Source: a virus. Taken from it: a stretch of 22,833 nt of DNA. The position numbers and the translations under genes are program-made. The stretch is from positions 1 to 22,833 of IMG/VR virus record IMGVR_UViG_3300008216_000091; one strand, given 5' to 3'. The notes beneath the pieces are model-generated. The model saw only the letters and a program-made list of their open reading frames with translations. It ran no database searches and was not told the origin of the DNA. Numbering within the stretch: the first letter of the stretch is position 1; each line of letters opens with the position of its first letter. Positions 2,245-10,655 of this stretch are shown piece by piece.

Positions 2245-3024
2245 CTACGTATTCTTCCCGCTCTTCTTGGGAGACGCTGGGAATACTCCACCAGTTCCTG
2301 TTGTCGGATATCCGGCCTGCCCATAAATCGTTCGCTGCATTTTCTCTAGATCATACATAGGAGAGTCTTTTGACCCCCAGAGGCGTTCAGGGACGGCTGC
2401 CGCTAGTCCCCGTGGCCCAGACGCGCCGGTAAAGAGAAACTCGCTAAACTCGCCAGGAGCATCAGCTCCAGGTCTTAGTAACGATAATGCCTGCTGCATC
2501 TCTTTCAACCCCGAATGAGCACCCCCGAAAGCTGGCGCTGGTGCTGGTTGCTGAACCGCACCGCGCATAAATTCCTGCCCACCTCTGGAAACTTCACCAG
2601 CAATAACATCCTGATCGGAGTTCAACTGAGAGACATCCTCCAATCCAGCCCCTGTTTGGGTAAACGGAATACTTAGTGGACTATCCCCCCAATCGACACC
2701 ACTCCGAAACTGCAGTTCTGGGCGAGGAAGCGCCGGGTCAATCCCACCAGCAAACACATCAACGGGACCAGCCCCCTTGAACATCGGGAGTGGCTGCACA
2801 TAGGAACTCGGCATCGAGACCGGAGTAGCGGCATACTGCGTGGCGAGAGCCCCCATCCGTCCCAGATCCCCCAACGCACCCTTGAAGATCCGCTGCGGAT
2901 TGAGCCCTGGAAACTGTACTCCTCCGTAACCTTCAATTTTAGCCGATTCAGGCCGCGCCCCTGACAGATAGCTCCCAAGCCCACCTAGCCCTGCCGCTGC
3001 AATCGGAACTGCTGCACTACCCAT
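2245..3024 (-). CDS. Probable internal virion / ejection protein, Gly-rich
   Basis: A 259-residue protein whose N-terminus (residues 4-22, AAVPIAAAGLGGLGSYL) is a short hydrophobic Ala/Gly segment, a common feature of phage ejection and minor virion proteins. The rest is Pro/Gly-rich with an amphipathic stretch near 170-185 (LKEMQQALSLLRPG) and a basic C-terminus. The ATG overlaps the stop of the GNAT-like gene (TAATG), so translation is probably coupled, and the next gene begins 17 bases downstream. No catalytic motif is visible. Function is inferred from its place between the tail genes and the coiled-coil ejection-like protein. Confidence 0.55.
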   Translation of the reverse strand: MGSAAVPIAAAGLGGLGSYLSGARPESAKIEGYGGVQFPGLNPQRIFKGALGDLGRMGALATQYAATPVSMPSSYVQPLPMFKGAGPVDVFAGGIDPALPRPELQFRSGVDWGDSPLSIPFTQTGAGLEDVSQLNSDQDVIAGEVSRGGQEFMRGAVQQPAPAPAFGGAHSGLKEMQQALSLLRPGADAPGEFSEFLFTGASGPRGLAAAVPERLWGSKDSPMYDLEKMQRTIYGQAGYPTTGTGGVFPASPKKSGKNT

Positions 3025-3500
3025 TACGTCAACTCCTTTGTAAACGTCCGTCGTGGTACCTCGATGTAGTGAAGGCGCTTGGCAATCGCCATCCCACGCG
3101 GATTGGTAGTTTCGACCGTGATAATGAAATTCTTGAGCCCCAGCGTCTTGGCATAGCGTTCGGATGCGTGAGCCGACGCGATACTGTACCGGCGATAAGA
3201 CGGGGCAATATAAAGATGTGGCTGACCAAACGTCCGATCTGGCGTGATGTTCGTCAGTGCCGTAAACCCAATCGTCTCACTGCCTCGATCAATCATTTGA
3301 AAGACGGACTGCTGGTTCCTGGCATCCTGGAGGAGCAAATTCATCGACATCGACAGCGCCACACTATCAGGGATGGGCATTCCCATAAATAACTCAAACC
3401 CATTACGATCCGCATCATACCAGCCCATGACGCGAGGGGGATCGCCGATCGTGTAGTTCCGAAGCCGAATGTCAGCAGCGTGACCGTTTCCGTTTCCCAT
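3024..3500 (-). CDS. GNAT-like acyltransferase-fold protein
   Basis: A 158-residue protein about the length of a single GNAT domain. The central part (HLYIAPSYRRYSIASAHASE, about residues 95-115) fits the beta4 strand and the following helix that bind acetyl-CoA, although the canonical Q/R-x-x-G-x-G/A loop is not clear (YRRYSI). The last third (KNFIITVETTNPRGMAIAKRLHYIEV) fits the usual beta5-alpha4-beta6 pattern, with N-x-x-G-x-A-x-x-x-x-x-Y. GNAT enzymes move acyl groups from CoA to amines. The substrate is unknown. It sits between a tail protein and an ejection-like protein, so it may be packaged or modify virion or host proteins. The eroded CoA loop may mean the fold is kept for a structural role. 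Confidence 0.55.
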   Translation of the reverse strand: MGNGNGHAADIRLRNYTIGDPPRVMGWYDADRNGFELFMGMPIPDSVALSMSMNLLLQDARNQQSVFQMIDRGSETIGFTALTNITPDRTFGQPHLYIAPSYRRYSIASAHASERYAKTLGLKNFIITVETTNPRGMAIAKRLHYIEVPRRTFTKELT

Positions 3501-4678: not shown

Positions 4679-4832
4679 GCCGTCTCGTGGTAGCGGTTGC
4701 TCCAGACCCAGGTTTCAGCACATCACGCGCAAACTGAGACGTGCTTTTCCCTGCACGCTTTGCCTGCCCGGAGAAGGCCCCAGCCTTGAAATTCGACCCG
4801 TCCTTCATCTTCTGAATCCATTGTTCCGCCAT
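4629..4832 (-). CDS. Small basic phage protein (WIQ-type), unknown function
   Basis: A 67-residue, strongly basic protein, starting MAEQWIQKMKDGSNFKAGAF and ending in an Arg-rich helix, RRRAHLAQTFGKLRRRKA. The order WIQ, then a short Lys/Gly segment, then a basic ARLAxTxxKLR tail, recalls small proteins of unknown function found in many tailed phages; this is from memory and unchecked. The start is firm: GAGGAGGT lies 8 bases upstream, and the ATG shares a base with the stop of the nozzle gene (TAATG). An upstream in-frame start at 4937 would only add residues inside the nozzle gene. Confidence 0.65.
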   Translation of the reverse strand: MAEQWIQKMKDGSNFKAGAFSGQAKRAGKSTSQFARDVLKPGSGATATTRRRAHLAQTFGKLRRRKA

Positions 4833-6880
4833 TACTGCAACCTCCTCGTCGCGCCTGGCAACACCTGATAGCCCAGCGTCATCCCTTCGAGACTCCAGCT
4901 CCCATTCTGTGCGTCGTCGCTGATCCGAATCCGACATCCCACATCCTGAATGAAGTCCCCGGTACTGCTTTCCATGTTGATAATGCGCTGCACACTATCG
5001 AAGGGCACCGTGATGTTGCTGCTCTCAGACGTATCGATCCCGTTCCCATCAGAAGTGATCAACTGGAGCCCCAGGGGTTCGATCGACTTTGTGGCGCTCC
5101 CACGCCCGACCGCCTCATCAGAAGCCCCTCCTGACATCCATTCAACTGTGAGCGTGACATCGGAATTAGCTTCCGCGATGATGTCGAGCCAGCGATACCG
5201 CTTCGTGTAGGCCATGAGCTGCTGCGGAGCCCGAACATCCCACGAATTGTCGGTCCCATAAATCACCTTCGTCATCCAGCGTGACGGGATATTCGATCCG
5301 TCAAAGCTGTCCCCATTGAAGAATTGGTAGCAGAAGCCGCCTTTCGAGGTCTGAGCCTCACCCGTCAGGATCACCTGTGTATCGCTCGACGTTTCGACTG
5401 TCGTGGAGGCCGACATCGGCATATCGGGCCAGACATACCAGACACCCCACCGATAGTTCCAGACCACGGCCTGATTACATTCGGCATCATCACCGGAGGC
5501 CGTCGGACCAGGCCAGAACCAGACGATATGCCCGTTTTCAATGTCATGTATGGCGTGAATCTTCTTGATCTGGGCATACAGGAAGGTCTTGAGGGTTTCC
5601 TTGACCGGAGTGCTGATAATGGTGTCGTTATTCCCGTCAAAGAGGCGGATATCGCCCATGGGTGTGAAATATGCCTGCATCACCCGTGGCGTCGTAATCT
5701 GGTTCCCGGACGCATCGGTATAGACCGCCCCAGCCGGTACCTGGACAATCGACCGGTGCGAGACGGCCCCAATAAGCGCATTGGACTTGGTACGCACCCA
5801 GTCCATGATGTCTGAGACTATCTGTCCGGTGCCGCTGACGGTCCAGATGGATCGTTCAAGGAACACGACCAACATACCTTCGAAGTCCCCCACGATCCCG
5901 GTAATGAGGTCCCCGACGGAGCTTTGATCAGTGAAATCGAGGTAGTTATTCGCTCCCACCTGATCGGGCTTCCCTGGATCGGACCAAAAGACACGCCGAG
6001 GATTGGTGTCGGTGCGTCCCCACCAGAGTCGCTGCTTGTGGGGTTCGCAGAAGTATGTGCCGGTCGCTGGGGCATCGCCATGCTCCTCCAGAAGTCGATG
6101 TTCAAGAATATCCAGATCCGATGCATTGTCTGTATAGCTGGTAGTCGTGCGTCCATCGATGAACGTCACAAAGTAATAGTTCGTACCGGTCCCGGTCGTG
6201 CGATACAGCTCATAGCCCGTGATGTCGGTATCCGAGTCGGCGGTCCATGACAGATTGGCCTGTTCATCCTGGAGTTGAATCACGTTAGAGGTCACAGACC
6301 CCGCCGATCGGGTTTCTGCTGCGTCCACACTGACCATCTTCCACGTATAGGACCCGTTGAGCTGTCCAGCCGACGTATTGACCACTGCCGTGATGGTCGG
6401 AGACTTCCCACTGGCACCAGCCGTCGCCAGAGAGGAGCCGTTCCAGACTCGTGGCGCTACCACCCCGTCTGTAAAGAACAGGTTGTTGTCCACCTGCGCG
6501 AAATCAGGAATCCGTCCCACCGATCCGGTGCTGAGATCAGCAATAAAGGTCCACGCCGCTCCATCATTCGTGCTGTACCACAGTTCAAATTCATTGGTGC
6601 CGTCGTCAAAGGCCCCAAGTAGTTGTCGGGTAAAACTCGCGCCAGTCTGCCGATAGGCCCGAAGTGACCGCAGACGTGTAGCACTCCCGCCCGTATTGGT
6701 CGTGACGGCCGAACTATTTTGCTTGCTATAGCCCAGAATCTTCTTGGCGCGTCCGAGCTTATCAATCCAGAGGTTCCGGCTGCCGCTGGACGAATAAATC
6801 GCCGGCAGCGCGACAGAATGAATCCCCTCCTGGGTGCCCAGGAACACCGAGAATACCTGGGTCTGCATTGGATATGCCAT
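4832..6880 (-). CDS. Tail nozzle / packaged-DNA stabilisation protein with Fn3-like insert
   Basis: A 682-residue, beta-rich protein. Aromatic, Gly/Asp-rich blades (FFTDGVVAPRVWNGSS, YFCEPHKQRLWWGRTDTNPR, VFWSDPG, IRLFDGNND, AVVWNYRWGVWYVWP) follow the beta-propeller pattern of podovirus tail nozzle or stabilisation proteins, the family of P22 gp10 and T7 gp12. These close the portal channel and hold the spikes or fibres. Residues about 161-254 look like a fibronectin type III domain (YTWKMVSVDAAETRSAG, ITGYELYRTT). I chose ATG 6880, four bases after the preceding stop with AGGT upstream, rather than ATG 6931, which lies inside the previous gene. Its length and position near the fibre support the call. 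Confidence 0.7.
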   Translation of the reverse strand: MAYPMQTQVFSVFLGTQEGIHSVALPAIYSSSGSRNLWIDKLGRAKKILGYSKQNSSAVTTNTGGSATRLRSLRAYRQTGASFTRQLLGAFDDGTNEFELWYSTNDGAAWTFIADLSTGSVGRIPDFAQVDNNLFFTDGVVAPRVWNGSSLATAGASGKSPTITAVVNTSAGQLNGSYTWKMVSVDAAETRSAGSVTSNVIQLQDEQANLSWTADSDTDITGYELYRTTGTGTNYYFVTFIDGRTTTSYTDNASDLDILEHRLLEEHGDAPATGTYFCEPHKQRLWWGRTDTNPRRVFWSDPGKPDQVGANNYLDFTDQSSVGDLITGIVGDFEGMLVVFLERSIWTVSGTGQIVSDIMDWVRTKSNALIGAVSHRSIVQVPAGAVYTDASGNQITTPRVMQAYFTPMGDIRLFDGNNDTIISTPVKETLKTFLYAQIKKIHAIHDIENGHIVWFWPGPTASGDDAECNQAVVWNYRWGVWYVWPDMPMSASTTVETSSDTQVILTGEAQTSKGGFCYQFFNGDSFDGSNIPSRWMTKVIYGTDNSWDVRAPQQLMAYTKRYRWLDIIAEANSDVTLTVEWMSGGASDEAVGRGSATKSIEPLGLQLITSDGNGIDTSESSNITVPFDSVQRIINMESSTGDFIQDVGCRIRISDDAQNGSWSLEGMTLGYQVLPGATRRLQ

Positions 6881-6884
6881 CACA

Positions 6885-8243
6885 CTACCTGCGCGTAATT
6901 CGGTGGAGATAATCCCTCGTCCCACCTTCATGGAACGTCCACGCCTGACCTTCAGTTAGCTCAATCACATCTGTTCTCTCACCAGTCCGCACATCAAACA
7001 CCTCAACCGACATCGGCCACTTTGCCGCAACCGTGTAGGACTCACGCATCCCCATCACCGCGACATACGATTTCCCACCCATGTTAGCCGCAAACGCTCT
7101 CACGACGCCGGACCCTCCCGTATCAGGCCAAATCTGATCGTCTGTCTCATACGGGTGGCAGTCCCAATGGTGATTGCACCGTTCCGCCGATGCGATGCCA
7201 GCCGGGAGTAACTCTCGCGTGGATCTGAGTGCCATCATGACCGACTCAGGGACGACATCCCAATACTGCTCAACGCCTCGAACGCCTGCGCTGCTGTGCA
7301 GCACGTATCCGGCCCCGCCAGCGATGAACGTCGCCGCCATCCCAATCGCTAGACGCGCAGGATCGGCATCGCTCTCTCCACTTGAGCCGGGTCCGATTGG
7401 CTCATTGTTCGTAAACGGCAGCACATGATCGTAGAACTGAGCCTCCCAGGGTTGTCGTTGTGGTCTGTAGAAGGCTTCCACCGTATCTGTCCGCCTGTCG
7501 AAATGTGGCGTGACAAGGTCTGCCCCAACCAGCCGACCATCGAAGAGCCGGTTGATCGACTCCTCGGCATTGCCTCCATCTGGACTCGATGGCGCGACGG
7601 GAATCTCGCTCACCTCATCCCAGAGTAACGTCAGTTCCCGGAGCGTCTCGTCATCGATCCCGTTGAGGTTCGACTCGTTTGCCACCTCCACAAACTGCAC
7701 GGCATCTCGCTTGCCTTCCAGCCGCTCAGCCATTACCTCAACCCACGCCCGACGGTCAGCATGGTCTGGCATCATCACCTGGGCATCTGCGAACAACACG
7801 ACCTGCGCGCGCATCCCTCTCTCGGCACACGCATCGAGCAGGGTATTCAAGACCTCGCCATAATCCGGCCACCTGGGATCGATGACTCGTCCTTCCCAGT
7901 AGGGTAACGAGCCCACCATCGACAGCACCCGAACGTAGTTCACGCCCCAGCCAGCTAGCCAGTCGAGTGTTTCTGACAGCATCGGCTGGTCGTGCTTCGC
8001 CGCCCACAGCCCCCACATCAGGGTCACGCCCCAGGCATTGAACGGTCCATCGTCATCCGCAAAGGCTCTGCCGTCGAGCCTGACATGGCCAGCAGGAAAC
8101 GGAACAGGTTCAGGAACAACGACAGGCGGGTCCGGAATTAGCTCCGCAACCGGAGGCTCAAATACCGGAGGCTCTGGAAGTACCAGGTCTGGAGTCGATG
8201 TGCAACCGACCACCACCGCCAGGATGAGCAGTGCCCGTATCAC
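6885..8243 (-). CDS. Lipoprotein glycoside hydrolase, clan GH-A (GH5-like)
   Basis: A 452-residue predicted secreted lipoprotein. From the GTG start (8243), residues 1-14 form a type II signal peptide with lipobox VVGC, lipidated Cys at 14. A Pro/Glu/Val-rich linker (about 23-50) leads to a TIM-barrel-like domain. The clan GH-A acid/base appears as VEVANES (N189-E190), and a nucleophile candidate is in FTNNEPIG (E281). The substrate is unknown; beta-linked glycans are usual for the clan. The GTG has GGGAG 6 bases upstream and overlaps the preceding stop as GTGA, so I prefer it to ATG 8291. Lying between fibre and nozzle genes it could be a depolymerase, but the lipobox points to export to a host membrane. 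Confidence 0.7.
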   Translation of the reverse strand: MIRALLILAVVVGCTSTPDLVLPEPPVFEPPVAELIPDPPVVVPEPVPFPAGHVRLDGRAFADDDGPFNAWGVTLMWGLWAAKHDQPMLSETLDWLAGWGVNYVRVLSMVGSLPYWEGRVIDPRWPDYGEVLNTLLDACAERGMRAQVVLFADAQVMMPDHADRRAWVEVMAERLEGKRDAVQFVEVANESNLNGIDDETLRELTLLWDEVSEIPVAPSSPDGGNAEESINRLFDGRLVGADLVTPHFDRRTDTVEAFYRPQRQPWEAQFYDHVLPFTNNEPIGPGSSGESDADPARLAIGMAATFIAGGAGYVLHSSAGVRGVEQYWDVVPESVMMALRSTRELLPAGIASAERCNHHWDCHPYETDDQIWPDTGGSGVVRAFAANMGGKSYVAVMGMRESYTVAAKWPMSVEVFDVRTGERTDVIELTEGQAWTFHEGGTRDYLHRITRR

Positions 8244-8434
8244 CGACCGCTCCCGAGAAGGGGTCGGCCATCTGGAATGGCACCTCGCCACTCCGCTGTT
8301 GCCTCGTGCAGCGTGGGAAACCGATCGGGTTCAAAAAGGAGCCGCCTGAGAACATGACTGACGGTGTCGTCAGTGGCAGCCGTCCCAACGGTCATGAGAT
8401 GCCGTTCTTGGATAGCCAGAATCAGAGGTGTCAT
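8240..8434 (-). CDS. Small phage protein coupled to the glycosidase gene
   Basis: A 64-residue protein starting MTPLILAIQERHLMTVGTAA and ending PDGRPLLGSGR. It contains a short segment, FPTLHEATAEWRGAIPDGRP. Its stop overlaps the GTG of the lipoprotein glycosidase (GTGA), a classic coupling arrangement, and it fills the gap after the tail fibre stop at 8484. GAG sits 6 bases upstream of the ATG, a weak ribosome-binding site. The first part might be amphipathic. No family is recognised; a fibre-associated chaperone or regulator is only a guess. Confidence 0.5.
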   Translation of the reverse strand: MTPLILAIQERHLMTVGTAATDDTVSHVLRRLLFEPDRFPTLHEATAEWRGAIPDGRPLLGSGR

Positions 8435-8483: not shown

Positions 8484-10655
8484 CTACCCGCTGGACGCTT
8501 CAAGGTCTGTAATCCGCTTGGTCAATGCGGCGTTTTCATCAATCAGTTCCTGAATGGCCCACCATGAAATGGCGGCCTGGTTTTTTGGCGAGATGCCGAT
8601 GTGATTCTTGGGTGTTCCGTCGTCCTTCAAGACAAACGGATTAAACCCAAGTCCAAATTCGGTGTAGAGATCCTGCGCGGACGGTCCCCCAAACCACACT
8701 GGGGTCTTTCCTTCAGGCAACCTGACGCTGTGATAGCGACCGTCCCGAATTCGCTGAATCCGCTGGCACACGCTCCCACCGTCAGACCCGCGTTCGATAT
8801 CCTCCGCCGACTGCTGGTCCGTCACGAACAGATCCTTGATGGCTACCGGACCCCAGGTCTTATCTTCCGCATCGCTGGCATCTGTCCACACGCCAAACTG
8901 TGTCAGCACACCCGAAGTCGCGGCAGGTCCTGGAGTGTTCACACCATCCATCACGAGAAACGTAATCGAACTATCCATCTGTGCTTCATTAGAATCAGTC
9001 ACATAAAAATAGATCCGATTGCATTGACGCTTTGTATCTCCATCGTCGTTTGAATAGAAAACAAGTTCGGCGACCCTAGTGGCATCAGTACCGCTCGCCT
9101 TGCTGTGGTAGAAATCGAGAGTCGGGCCTCTGGTATTGTTGGAGGAGACGAGGTTGCACACGTTGATACTCGTCGAGGTCACGTTTAGGATTTTTCCACT
9201 GTCGTCCCACGTCAACCCTGAGTCGCCTCCGAAACTCCCGCCATCATTGAACTGGACCTGCGTATCGCTCCCGCCTGGGCTTCCTGCGGACGCCGTTGCC
9301 CACTGGAGCGTGCCATCGGTGTTATTGATGGTAAGTAATTGATTCACGGAGCCGATCGCCGCTGGAAAGGTCAGGGTATAGGAACTTGAGACGGTAGTGG
9401 GCGCGTCGAGGCCGACATACTGCCCACCTGTATTGTCCTGCAGGCGCAAATCGTTTTCAGCCAGAATGTTGAGATGGCCGTTGACTTCAGCATTTCCCGT
9501 CGTCGTAATCGCAGACGTTCCGGCGCCAATCAGGACACGTCCTGATGCAAGCGTGGACGCGCCGGTACCCCCATACGCCACACCAACATCAGTGGCCTGC
9601 CACGTTCCAGTCGCCACCGTTCCCAGGACGGTAATCGCCGTGGAACTCCCGACATCGAGAGTTGTGGGATCGCCAGAGGCGTCACCAATAAGGATGACCC
9701 CATCTCCAAGCACTTCCGTGGCCGTGATGGCTGACGTACCGCTCCCGATCAACACACCACCATCCGTCAGAGAGGAGGCCCCAGTGCCTCCGTCGGTCAC
9801 CGGAACATCCGTCCCGCCAGCCCGGTAAATGGCGTTGCCCTCAATCGAAACATTCCCTGCACTCGCTCTCGTCAGGGTGGTGTCGCTCGCATGGCCTAAT
9901 TCAATCCCTGTAAATTGCGGACTATCGCCCGTTCCGACACCAACACTCGTCCGAAGGGTCGCCCCGCTCTCTGCCACAGGATCGCCCGAGCCATCCCCGA
10001 CAATCATCTCGCTGTCGGCCAAGACGGCCATCGGGGTAATTGCACTGCTCCCGCTGCCCAGTAACACTCCACCGTCGGTGAGCGAGGACACGCCAGTCCC
10101 CCCATCGGTGACGGGTACATCCGTGCCCCCGGCGCGGTAGATCGCGTTCCCCTCAATGGACACATTCCCTGAGCTTGCGCGAGTCAGGGTCGTATCACTC
10201 GCATGGCCGAGATTAAGGGCGGTGAACTGAGGGCTGTCGCCTGTGCCCACCCCAATACTCGTCCGCAAGGTCGCACCACTTTCAGCCACCGGGTCCGTCG
10301 ATCCATCGCCGACAATCATTTCGCTATCAGCGAGGACAGACATCGCTGTCACGGCCGAAGTGCCACTCCCGAGGAGAACTCCCCCATCGGTGAGCGAGGT
10401 GGCTCCCGTGCCACCCTTGGAGACCCCCACCGCACTACTCAGATTGGACGGGTCAATGTAGTAGGTACCGGTTTGTCCGTCGAGTTTATCGGCGTCGAGG
10501 TTGGAGACCACCGCCGCCCCGGCGACCACGGCAAACGGCGCATTCGTACTGCGACTGAAGGTATGCAGACCCGTGATGGTGTAGGCGTTCTCCTCGGTGA
10601 CGAGGGTATTCCCACTCAGATCCGAATCAGTATTCGCAACTTCAATATCAGCCAT
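8484..10655 (-). CDS. Tail fibre protein with tandem repeats and S74-like C-terminal chaperone region
   Basis: A 723-residue protein rich in Gly, Thr, Ser and Asp. Residues 1-83 are an N-terminal region that may attach to the tail. Two 104-residue repeats follow (84-187, 188-291), with a degraded third from 292; they show the GGTGASSLTDGGVLLGSG pattern typical of trimeric fibres. The C-terminus (about 600-723) has AEDKTWGPVAIKDLF, then GFNPFVLKDDG, ending in a coiled coil, AIQELIDENAALTKRITDLE. This resembles the peptidase S74 intramolecular chaperone that trimerises fibres and often cleaves itself off, though I cannot assign the Ser-Asp catalytic pair. It probably recognises the host receptor. 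Confidence 0.75.
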   Translation of the reverse strand: MADIEVANTDSDLSGNTLVTEENAYTITGLHTFSRSTNAPFAVVAGAAVVSNLDADKLDGQTGTYYIDPSNLSSAVGVSKGGTGATSLTDGGVLLGSGTSAVTAMSVLADSEMIVGDGSTDPVAESGATLRTSIGVGTGDSPQFTALNLGHASDTTLTRASSGNVSIEGNAIYRAGGTDVPVTDGGTGVSSLTDGGVLLGSGSSAITPMAVLADSEMIVGDGSGDPVAESGATLRTSVGVGTGDSPQFTGIELGHASDTTLTRASAGNVSIEGNAIYRAGGTDVPVTDGGTGASSLTDGGVLIGSGTSAITATEVLGDGVILIGDASGDPTTLDVGSSTAITVLGTVATGTWQATDVGVAYGGTGASTLASGRVLIGAGTSAITTTGNAEVNGHLNILAENDLRLQDNTGGQYVGLDAPTTVSSSYTLTFPAAIGSVNQLLTINNTDGTLQWATASAGSPGGSDTQVQFNDGGSFGGDSGLTWDDSGKILNVTSTSINVCNLVSSNNTRGPTLDFYHSKASGTDATRVAELVFYSNDDGDTKRQCNRIYFYVTDSNEAQMDSSITFLVMDGVNTPGPAATSGVLTQFGVWTDASDAEDKTWGPVAIKDLFVTDQQSAEDIERGSDGGSVCQRIQRIRDGRYHSVRLPEGKTPVWFGGPSAQDLYTEFGLGFNPFVLKDDGTPKNHIGISPKNQAAISWWAIQELIDENAALTKRITDLEASSG
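9783..10406 (-). repeat. Two tandem 312-bp coding repeats in the tail fibre gene
   Basis: Two consecutive 104-codon units (10406-10095 and 10094-9783) encode nearly the same protein, with shared blocks such as VLADSEMIVGDGS, DPVAESGATLRTS, GVGTGDSPQF, LGHASDTTLTRAS and GNAIYRAGGTDVPVTDGG. A third unit starts at 9782 and soon diverges. The DNA has drifted: over the last block the two copies differ at about 12 of 54 bases without changing a residue. Confidence 0.85.

Follow-up and report, generated by a model that had tools for sequence, protein, structure and literature searches.

A predicted lipoprotein glycoside hydrolase of clan GH-A type in an exchangeable slot among phage tail genes

Phages encode lipoproteins, among them the Rz1 o-spanins, T5 Llp and TP-J34 Ltp, while the tailspike depolymerases of podoviruses belong to the virion, lack signal peptides and are mostly trimers of beta-helix fold. 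Podovirus tailspikes are exchangeable polysaccharide-degrading enzymes, encoded in the tail gene region and equipped with swappable N-terminal modules (PMC5380687), features which they share with the gene described here. Phage Izhevsk has 13 predicted lipoproteins (PMC7685451), and a peat-soil virus encodes a GH5 endomannanase, a phage-borne enzyme of the GH-A type whose activity has been shown (PMC6786970). The current study concerns a gene in the IMG/VR virus record IMGVR_UViG_3300008216_000091, of which the whole stretch of 22,833 nucleotides that was analysed is referred to as the window. The product resembles the known phage lipoproteins in that it is phage-encoded, carries a type II signal and would be made in the infected cell; but those proteins are small and non-enzymatic, none of them a glycosidase in the papers found, whereas the window protein is a predicted enzyme. 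For the soil virus endomannanase, PMC6786970 mentions no signal peptide and describes no exchangeable tail or lysis slot, and the limited set of literature searched yielded no phage glycosidase that is a lipoprotein. Phages are already known to carry GH5 enzymes (PMC6786970) and lipoproteins (PMC7685451), and the window gene would unite a glycosidase with a lipid anchor. The locus contains the following features:

4832..6880, minus strand: conserved tail-region gene, one boundary of the slot, ATG at 6880 (78 relatives in viral contigs)
6885..8243, minus strand: lipoprotein glycoside hydrolase gene, 452 aa, GTG start (open ORF; dN/dS)
6888..7193, minus strand: C-terminal beta-sandwich, residues about 351-452 (strands at 382-451 in the model; match over the full length to GH140 structures)
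7194..8096, minus strand: TIM-barrel domain, clan GH-A-like, residues about 50-350 (AlphaFold2 model, structural matches)
7401..7403, minus strand: Glu281, predicted nucleophile, end of beta7 (invariant in 34 proteins; model)
7674..7676, minus strand: Glu190, predicted acid/base, after Asn189, end of beta4 (invariant in 34 proteins; model)
8097..8201, minus strand: Pro/Glu/Val-rich stalk, residues 15-49 (disordered in the model, pLDDT under 60)
8202..8243, minus strand: type II signal peptide, residues 1-14, lipobox V-V-G-C14, +2 residue Thr (PS00013 match)
8240..8434, minus strand: 64-aa ORF whose GTGA overlap with the hydrolase gene indicates translational coupling
8250..8254, minus strand: Shine-Dalgarno GGGAG, 6 nt ahead of the GTG at 8241-8243
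8484..10655, minus strand: tail-fibre-like gene, the other slot boundary (phrog_31660 tail fiber, E 0.0013, weak; MADIxVxNTD start conserved in relatives)

The hydrolase reading frame is real and starts at the GTG at 8243. This start is fixed by the Shine-Dalgarno sequence together with the 4-nt overlap with the 64-aa ORF, which has no family match and is not a transmembrane (TM) protein, and the three closest relatives with a lipobox (L005, L006 and L014) have an equivalent start codon, the same 4-nt overlap and a Shine-Dalgarno sequence of their own. The gene is under purifying selection, with dN/dS of 0.08-0.18 in pairs with unsaturated synonymous sites. The start includes the signal sequence, and the preliminary description, which had proposed a type II signal with a VVGC lipobox followed by a Pro-rich stalk, is borne out on both points. 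PROSITE pattern PS00013 fits at residues 4-14 (ALLILAVVVGC), with Arg3 as the positive charge of the n-region, so that the pattern test finds a positive n-region, a hydrophobic core and a lipobox Cys within the first ~35 residues, lipidation itself being predicted. The pattern is also fitted by L005, L014 and the bacterial homologue L015, and L006 (LNSC) is a near-match. Only four of the 227 non-overlapping ORFs in 13 phage loci pass the lipobox filter and three of these belong to the hydrolase family (hypergeometric about 1e-4 for three of eight family members, by hand calculation); the lipobox in the hydrolase is therefore not background. In enterobacteria, the Lol rule sends lipoproteins without Asp at +2 to the outer membrane. 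The residue after the lipobox Cys is Thr in the window protein and Ser, Gly or Ala in its relatives, with Asp in none, and by the enterobacterial rule an outer membrane destination is thus indicated for the hydrolase.

Two AlphaFold2 models (pLDDT 81.6 for the whole protein; pLDDT 86.8 and pTM 0.89 for the domain without the stalk) predict a TIM barrel followed by a C-terminal beta-sandwich. The preliminary description had named a clan GH-A-like domain with E190 and E281 as catalytic candidates, and the models agree with it, as N189-E190 lies just past beta4 (182-187) and E281 just past beta7 (277-279) of the predicted barrel. Across 34 aligned proteins, many pairs of which are under 30% identical, N189, E190, H247 and E281 never vary, and neither does R105 except in one gapped row. 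The protein thus combines, in the model, a (beta/alpha)8 barrel with a Glu at the C-terminal ends of beta4 (after Asn) and beta7, as in clan GH-A. The top structural matches are GH140, GH164, GH5 and GH35, with neighbours ranging over mannanases, apiosidases and galactosidases, although Foldseek ranks are not family assignments. VIA-align places GH140 (PF13204; BT_1012 and the apiosidase 8t9w) first, the match extending over both the barrel and the beta-sandwich (Z 29-30, rmsd 3.1-3.4 A over 366-377 residues), but at 11-13% identity and without a match to the PF13204 profile above cut-off. The GH5 mannanases and mannosidases (1uuq, 1rh9) come next; their barrel (Z about 24) shares the Glu-Glu pair at the beta4 and beta7 ends and the Asn before the acid/base, whereas identity is 10-16% and the window protein has the extra C-terminal domain. 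The window protein has no match to the GH5 (Pfam cellulase) profile PF00150 or to any other Pfam family, and relatives give Pfam matches only through the low-complexity stalk. Matches of relatives to PARP, TonB and SslE were rejected as alignments to the (PE)n stalk, and a weak PDB profile match to Man5A (1uuq, E 0.0042) was lost once the profile was broadened; the glycoside hydrolase assignment therefore rests on the fold and the invariant residues. Pfam, PHROGs, NCBIfam and PADLOC gave no family for the hydrolase, and the lack of a PADLOC match means no support from that source for a defence role. Because the Glu-Glu pair is of GH5 type whereas BT_1012 of GH140 has Asp187 and Glu284 (PMC4032388), the protein is called clan GH-A-like and left unclassified below the clan, with a predicted retaining activity. 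Uncharacterised proteins of uncultured phages in BFVD share the predicted fold (A0A6J5R1U1, TM 0.79), so that this barrel as such was already present in sequence databases.

The gene had been described as lying between fibre and nozzle genes. The fibre neighbour stands, on a weak match, and the other neighbour is indeed a tail-region gene, but the name 'nozzle' drew no support from Pfam, PHROGs or PDB sequence searches. A search with the tail-region gene returned 78 contigs, and in about 65 related podovirus contigs that were compared the slot between it and the fibre gene is hypervariable. It is empty in some (e.g. L055, L058, L107), filled with unrelated proteins in L060-L064, L067 and L079, and in others holds GH-A enzymes behind different N-termini: about 20 begin with DYxWWIxHxHxDSAF, eight with YxxAIQxARxAY...VDDxGLAE, five of which are 4-nt-coupled to a small TM coiled-coil gene, and one or two have a lectin-like start. 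Within the podovirus slot the lipobox is found in the window lineage only, and most slot enzymes have no signal peptide. Since slot contents, N-termini and the 4-nt-coupled TM genes all vary, exchange extends to the enzyme, the anchor and the small TM partner alike. Far from being a one-off, the window gene represents an exchangeable GH-A cassette in its lipoprotein version, with same-slot relatives that lack a signal peptide. Contigs L060-L064 and L110 carry another unknown enzyme-sized slot protein (about 390 aa, N-terminus PNxHQRFTGIN), followed in L060-L064 by a 116-aa gene with a homologue elsewhere in the 39-kb sister contig of the window phage (L027:5091-5438). The same sister contig has an ISXO2/IS1595-like transposase fragment (L027:8632-8901; PF12762, E 6.5e-11) adjoining an HsdR_N/N6-methylase gene, and positions 3024-3500 of the window encode a GNAT acetyltransferase (PF13302, E 2.4e-6) amid late phage genes.

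Close relatives of the hydrolase were found in IMG/VR viral contigs, while tblastn gave no match in the phages collection (50,697 records) or among plasmids. The barrels are conserved across these relatives and the N-termini are not. A lipobox N-terminus is present in the window protein, L005, L006 and L014; L007 and L010, both window-type, have instead a short amphipathic start and a Pro-rich stalk, and L011 and L016 a bulb-lectin-like repeat. The settings differ as well: a podovirus tail region for the window gene, L007 and L008, a siphovirus-like tail/lysis region for L005, L006 and L014, a DnaB/SSB replication region for L010 and a T4-like DNA polymerase region for L011. In L005, L006 and L014 the hydrolase gene shares a 4-nt overlap with a small TM coiled-coil gene and has an endolysin gene downstream: in L005 a GH108 endolysin comes immediately next, in L014 one small gene precedes an M15 endolysin, and L006 has the same arrangement with a homologue of the M15 gene. 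In the sister contig of the window phage the M15 endolysin gene is located away from the hydrolase, so the link to lysis is known from the relatives only. Small TM coiled-coil genes, unrelated in sequence, are repeatedly 4-nt-coupled to the GH-A gene across phages (L070:2787-3035, L083, L084, L086, L114, L005:7447-7746, L006:7540-7830, L014:7519-7809) and may form a two-gene unit with it. Close to the hydrolase gene, L014:6178-7152 and L006:5793-6818 encode proteins with a short amphipathic start, a Pro-rich linker and an unidentified C-terminal domain; as this N-terminal style is that of L007 and L010, such anchors seem to be common to unrelated domains. Two proteins of one T4-like contig (L011:3-392 and L011:3900-5339) have in common the bulb-lectin-like N-terminal repeat SxDGKYEGVLxxxDGNFVV and differ in their C-terminal parts.

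The four viral lipobox sequences group together (support 90/76 in the 34-protein tree, 80/80 in the other tree), as do the window protein, L005 and L006 (98/99 and 100/97). Because the lipobox sequences cluster, the siphovirus-like contigs hold closer relatives of the window barrel than do L007 and L008, which share the podovirus backbone of the window phage; the lipobox form thus recurs across phage types with its signal kept. A minority of Acidobacteriota carry chromosomal homologues (two of 396 sampled in the phylum, nine of 162 in one order; other bacterial phyla were covered by a pattern-based scan alone). One of these homologues is itself a predicted lipoprotein. They have housekeeping neighbours, and an origin of L015 and L031 as prophage remnants was rejected on account of the MurA-like EPSP-synthase family and Tex neighbours. 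The bacterial L031 is nested among the viral sequences, and constraining the latter to one clade is rejected at the borderline (p-AU 0.048); with long branches in the tree, this hints at exchange and does not prove it. The suggestion that a captured host gene had been turned to tail use survives in its first half, as the Acidobacteriota homologues point to a cellular gene pool; tail use is not favoured for the window copy, because the lipobox form travels with its barrel into siphovirus-like genomes beside endolysins.

We tentatively propose, at somewhat less than even confidence, that a late, lipid-anchored retaining glycosidase trims the envelope glycan of the infected cell itself, aiding egress and limiting re-adsorption. 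The GH-A hydrolase would be exported by the Sec/Lsp lipoprotein route and lipidated at Cys14, and the Pro-rich stalk would hold it in the envelope of the infected cell and not in the virus particle. It would be produced late, with the tail genes in the window phage and with the lysis genes in the siphovirus-like relatives, and its target would be a polysaccharide belonging to the envelope or coat of the host itself. The progeny might gain in two ways, as the coat would be loosened for egress and the glycan used for re-adsorption removed, in a fashion similar to a receptor-destroying enzyme. Lipidation, membrane face, substrate, timing and benefit are steps that we infer: the lipobox disfavours assembly into the virion, the exchangeable slot position favours a host-surface glycan as the target, and the endolysins adjoining the gene in the siphovirus-like relatives favour late timing alongside lysis. 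The weak point is topology. As an outer-membrane lipoprotein of an ordinary Gram-negative host faces the periplasm, surface display needs more, and display on the outer face is putative, as are the block on superinfection and the release of progeny that the preliminary description had suggested.

The gene could instead encode a virion tail depolymerase that opens the host glycan at entry, its N-terminal segment docking on the particle or being a relic. A virion or released role does fit the slot in general, since most same-slot podovirus enzymes have no signal peptide; the slot between fibre and tail genes houses these relatives behind varied N-terminal modules, the window-type relatives L007 and L010 lack the lipobox, and in the T4-like contig L018 the gene is flanked by fibre-like genes and a head-tail adaptor gene. 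The window protein, however, carries an export signal, which such depolymerases lack: the full type II signal, Shine-Dalgarno sequence and coupled start persist in four genomes from two types of phage (L006 as a near-match), and an exported, lipidated protein would miss particles assembled in the cytoplasm. We therefore regard a virion role for the window copy as unlikely.

A role as lysis factor, in which the outer-membrane lipoprotein on its Pro-rich stalk would work on the cell wall or connect the envelope layers, much like an o-spanin with a hydrolase head, would account for the small TM coiled-coil genes and endolysins that adjoin the gene in L005, L006 and L014. The lipobox and Pro-rich segment resemble Rz1, and an Rz-like spanin is matched weakly in PHROGs (E 0.03). 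To these o-spanin traits, however, an enzyme of 400 residues is added, the close structural matches are not muramidases, and in the window phage the M15 endolysin is encoded at a distance from the gene, whose upstream neighbour is not TM. In the TM proteins of the three relatives the N-terminus is acidic and the TM segment is followed by basic residues, a pattern suggestive of an N-out/C-in orientation, unlike i-spanins. A lysis role is very improbable. An auxiliary metabolic role, in which a captured bacterial lipoprotein hydrolase feeds the infected cell from environmental polysaccharide, also seems improbable. It would be in keeping with the Acidobacteriota homologues, one with a lipobox, with the position of L031 inside the viral clade and with the demonstrated activity of the soil virus endomannanase (PMC6786970); but the gene lies among tail or lysis genes and in no metabolic cluster, and divergent enzymes swapped in one slot fit changing host surfaces better than nutrient supply.

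Phage depolymerases have been sought in virions; the window gene, with the envelope role proposed above, points instead to a class that uncultured marine phages would make for the infected cell. A wider proposal, which we consider rather unlikely, is that tailed phages display a receptor-destroying enzyme on the infected cell as the functional counterpart of influenza neuraminidase, with one GH-A enzyme family, lipid-anchored or on other N-terminal modules within an exchangeable cassette, serving both entry and egress. Enzyme and anchor are both swapped in one slot, and the same barrel family occurs with and without a lipid anchor. For annotation this is a warning that signal peptides matter when glycosidases get called tail proteins or metabolic genes, and whether phages strip host glycan on their way out becomes a testable question.
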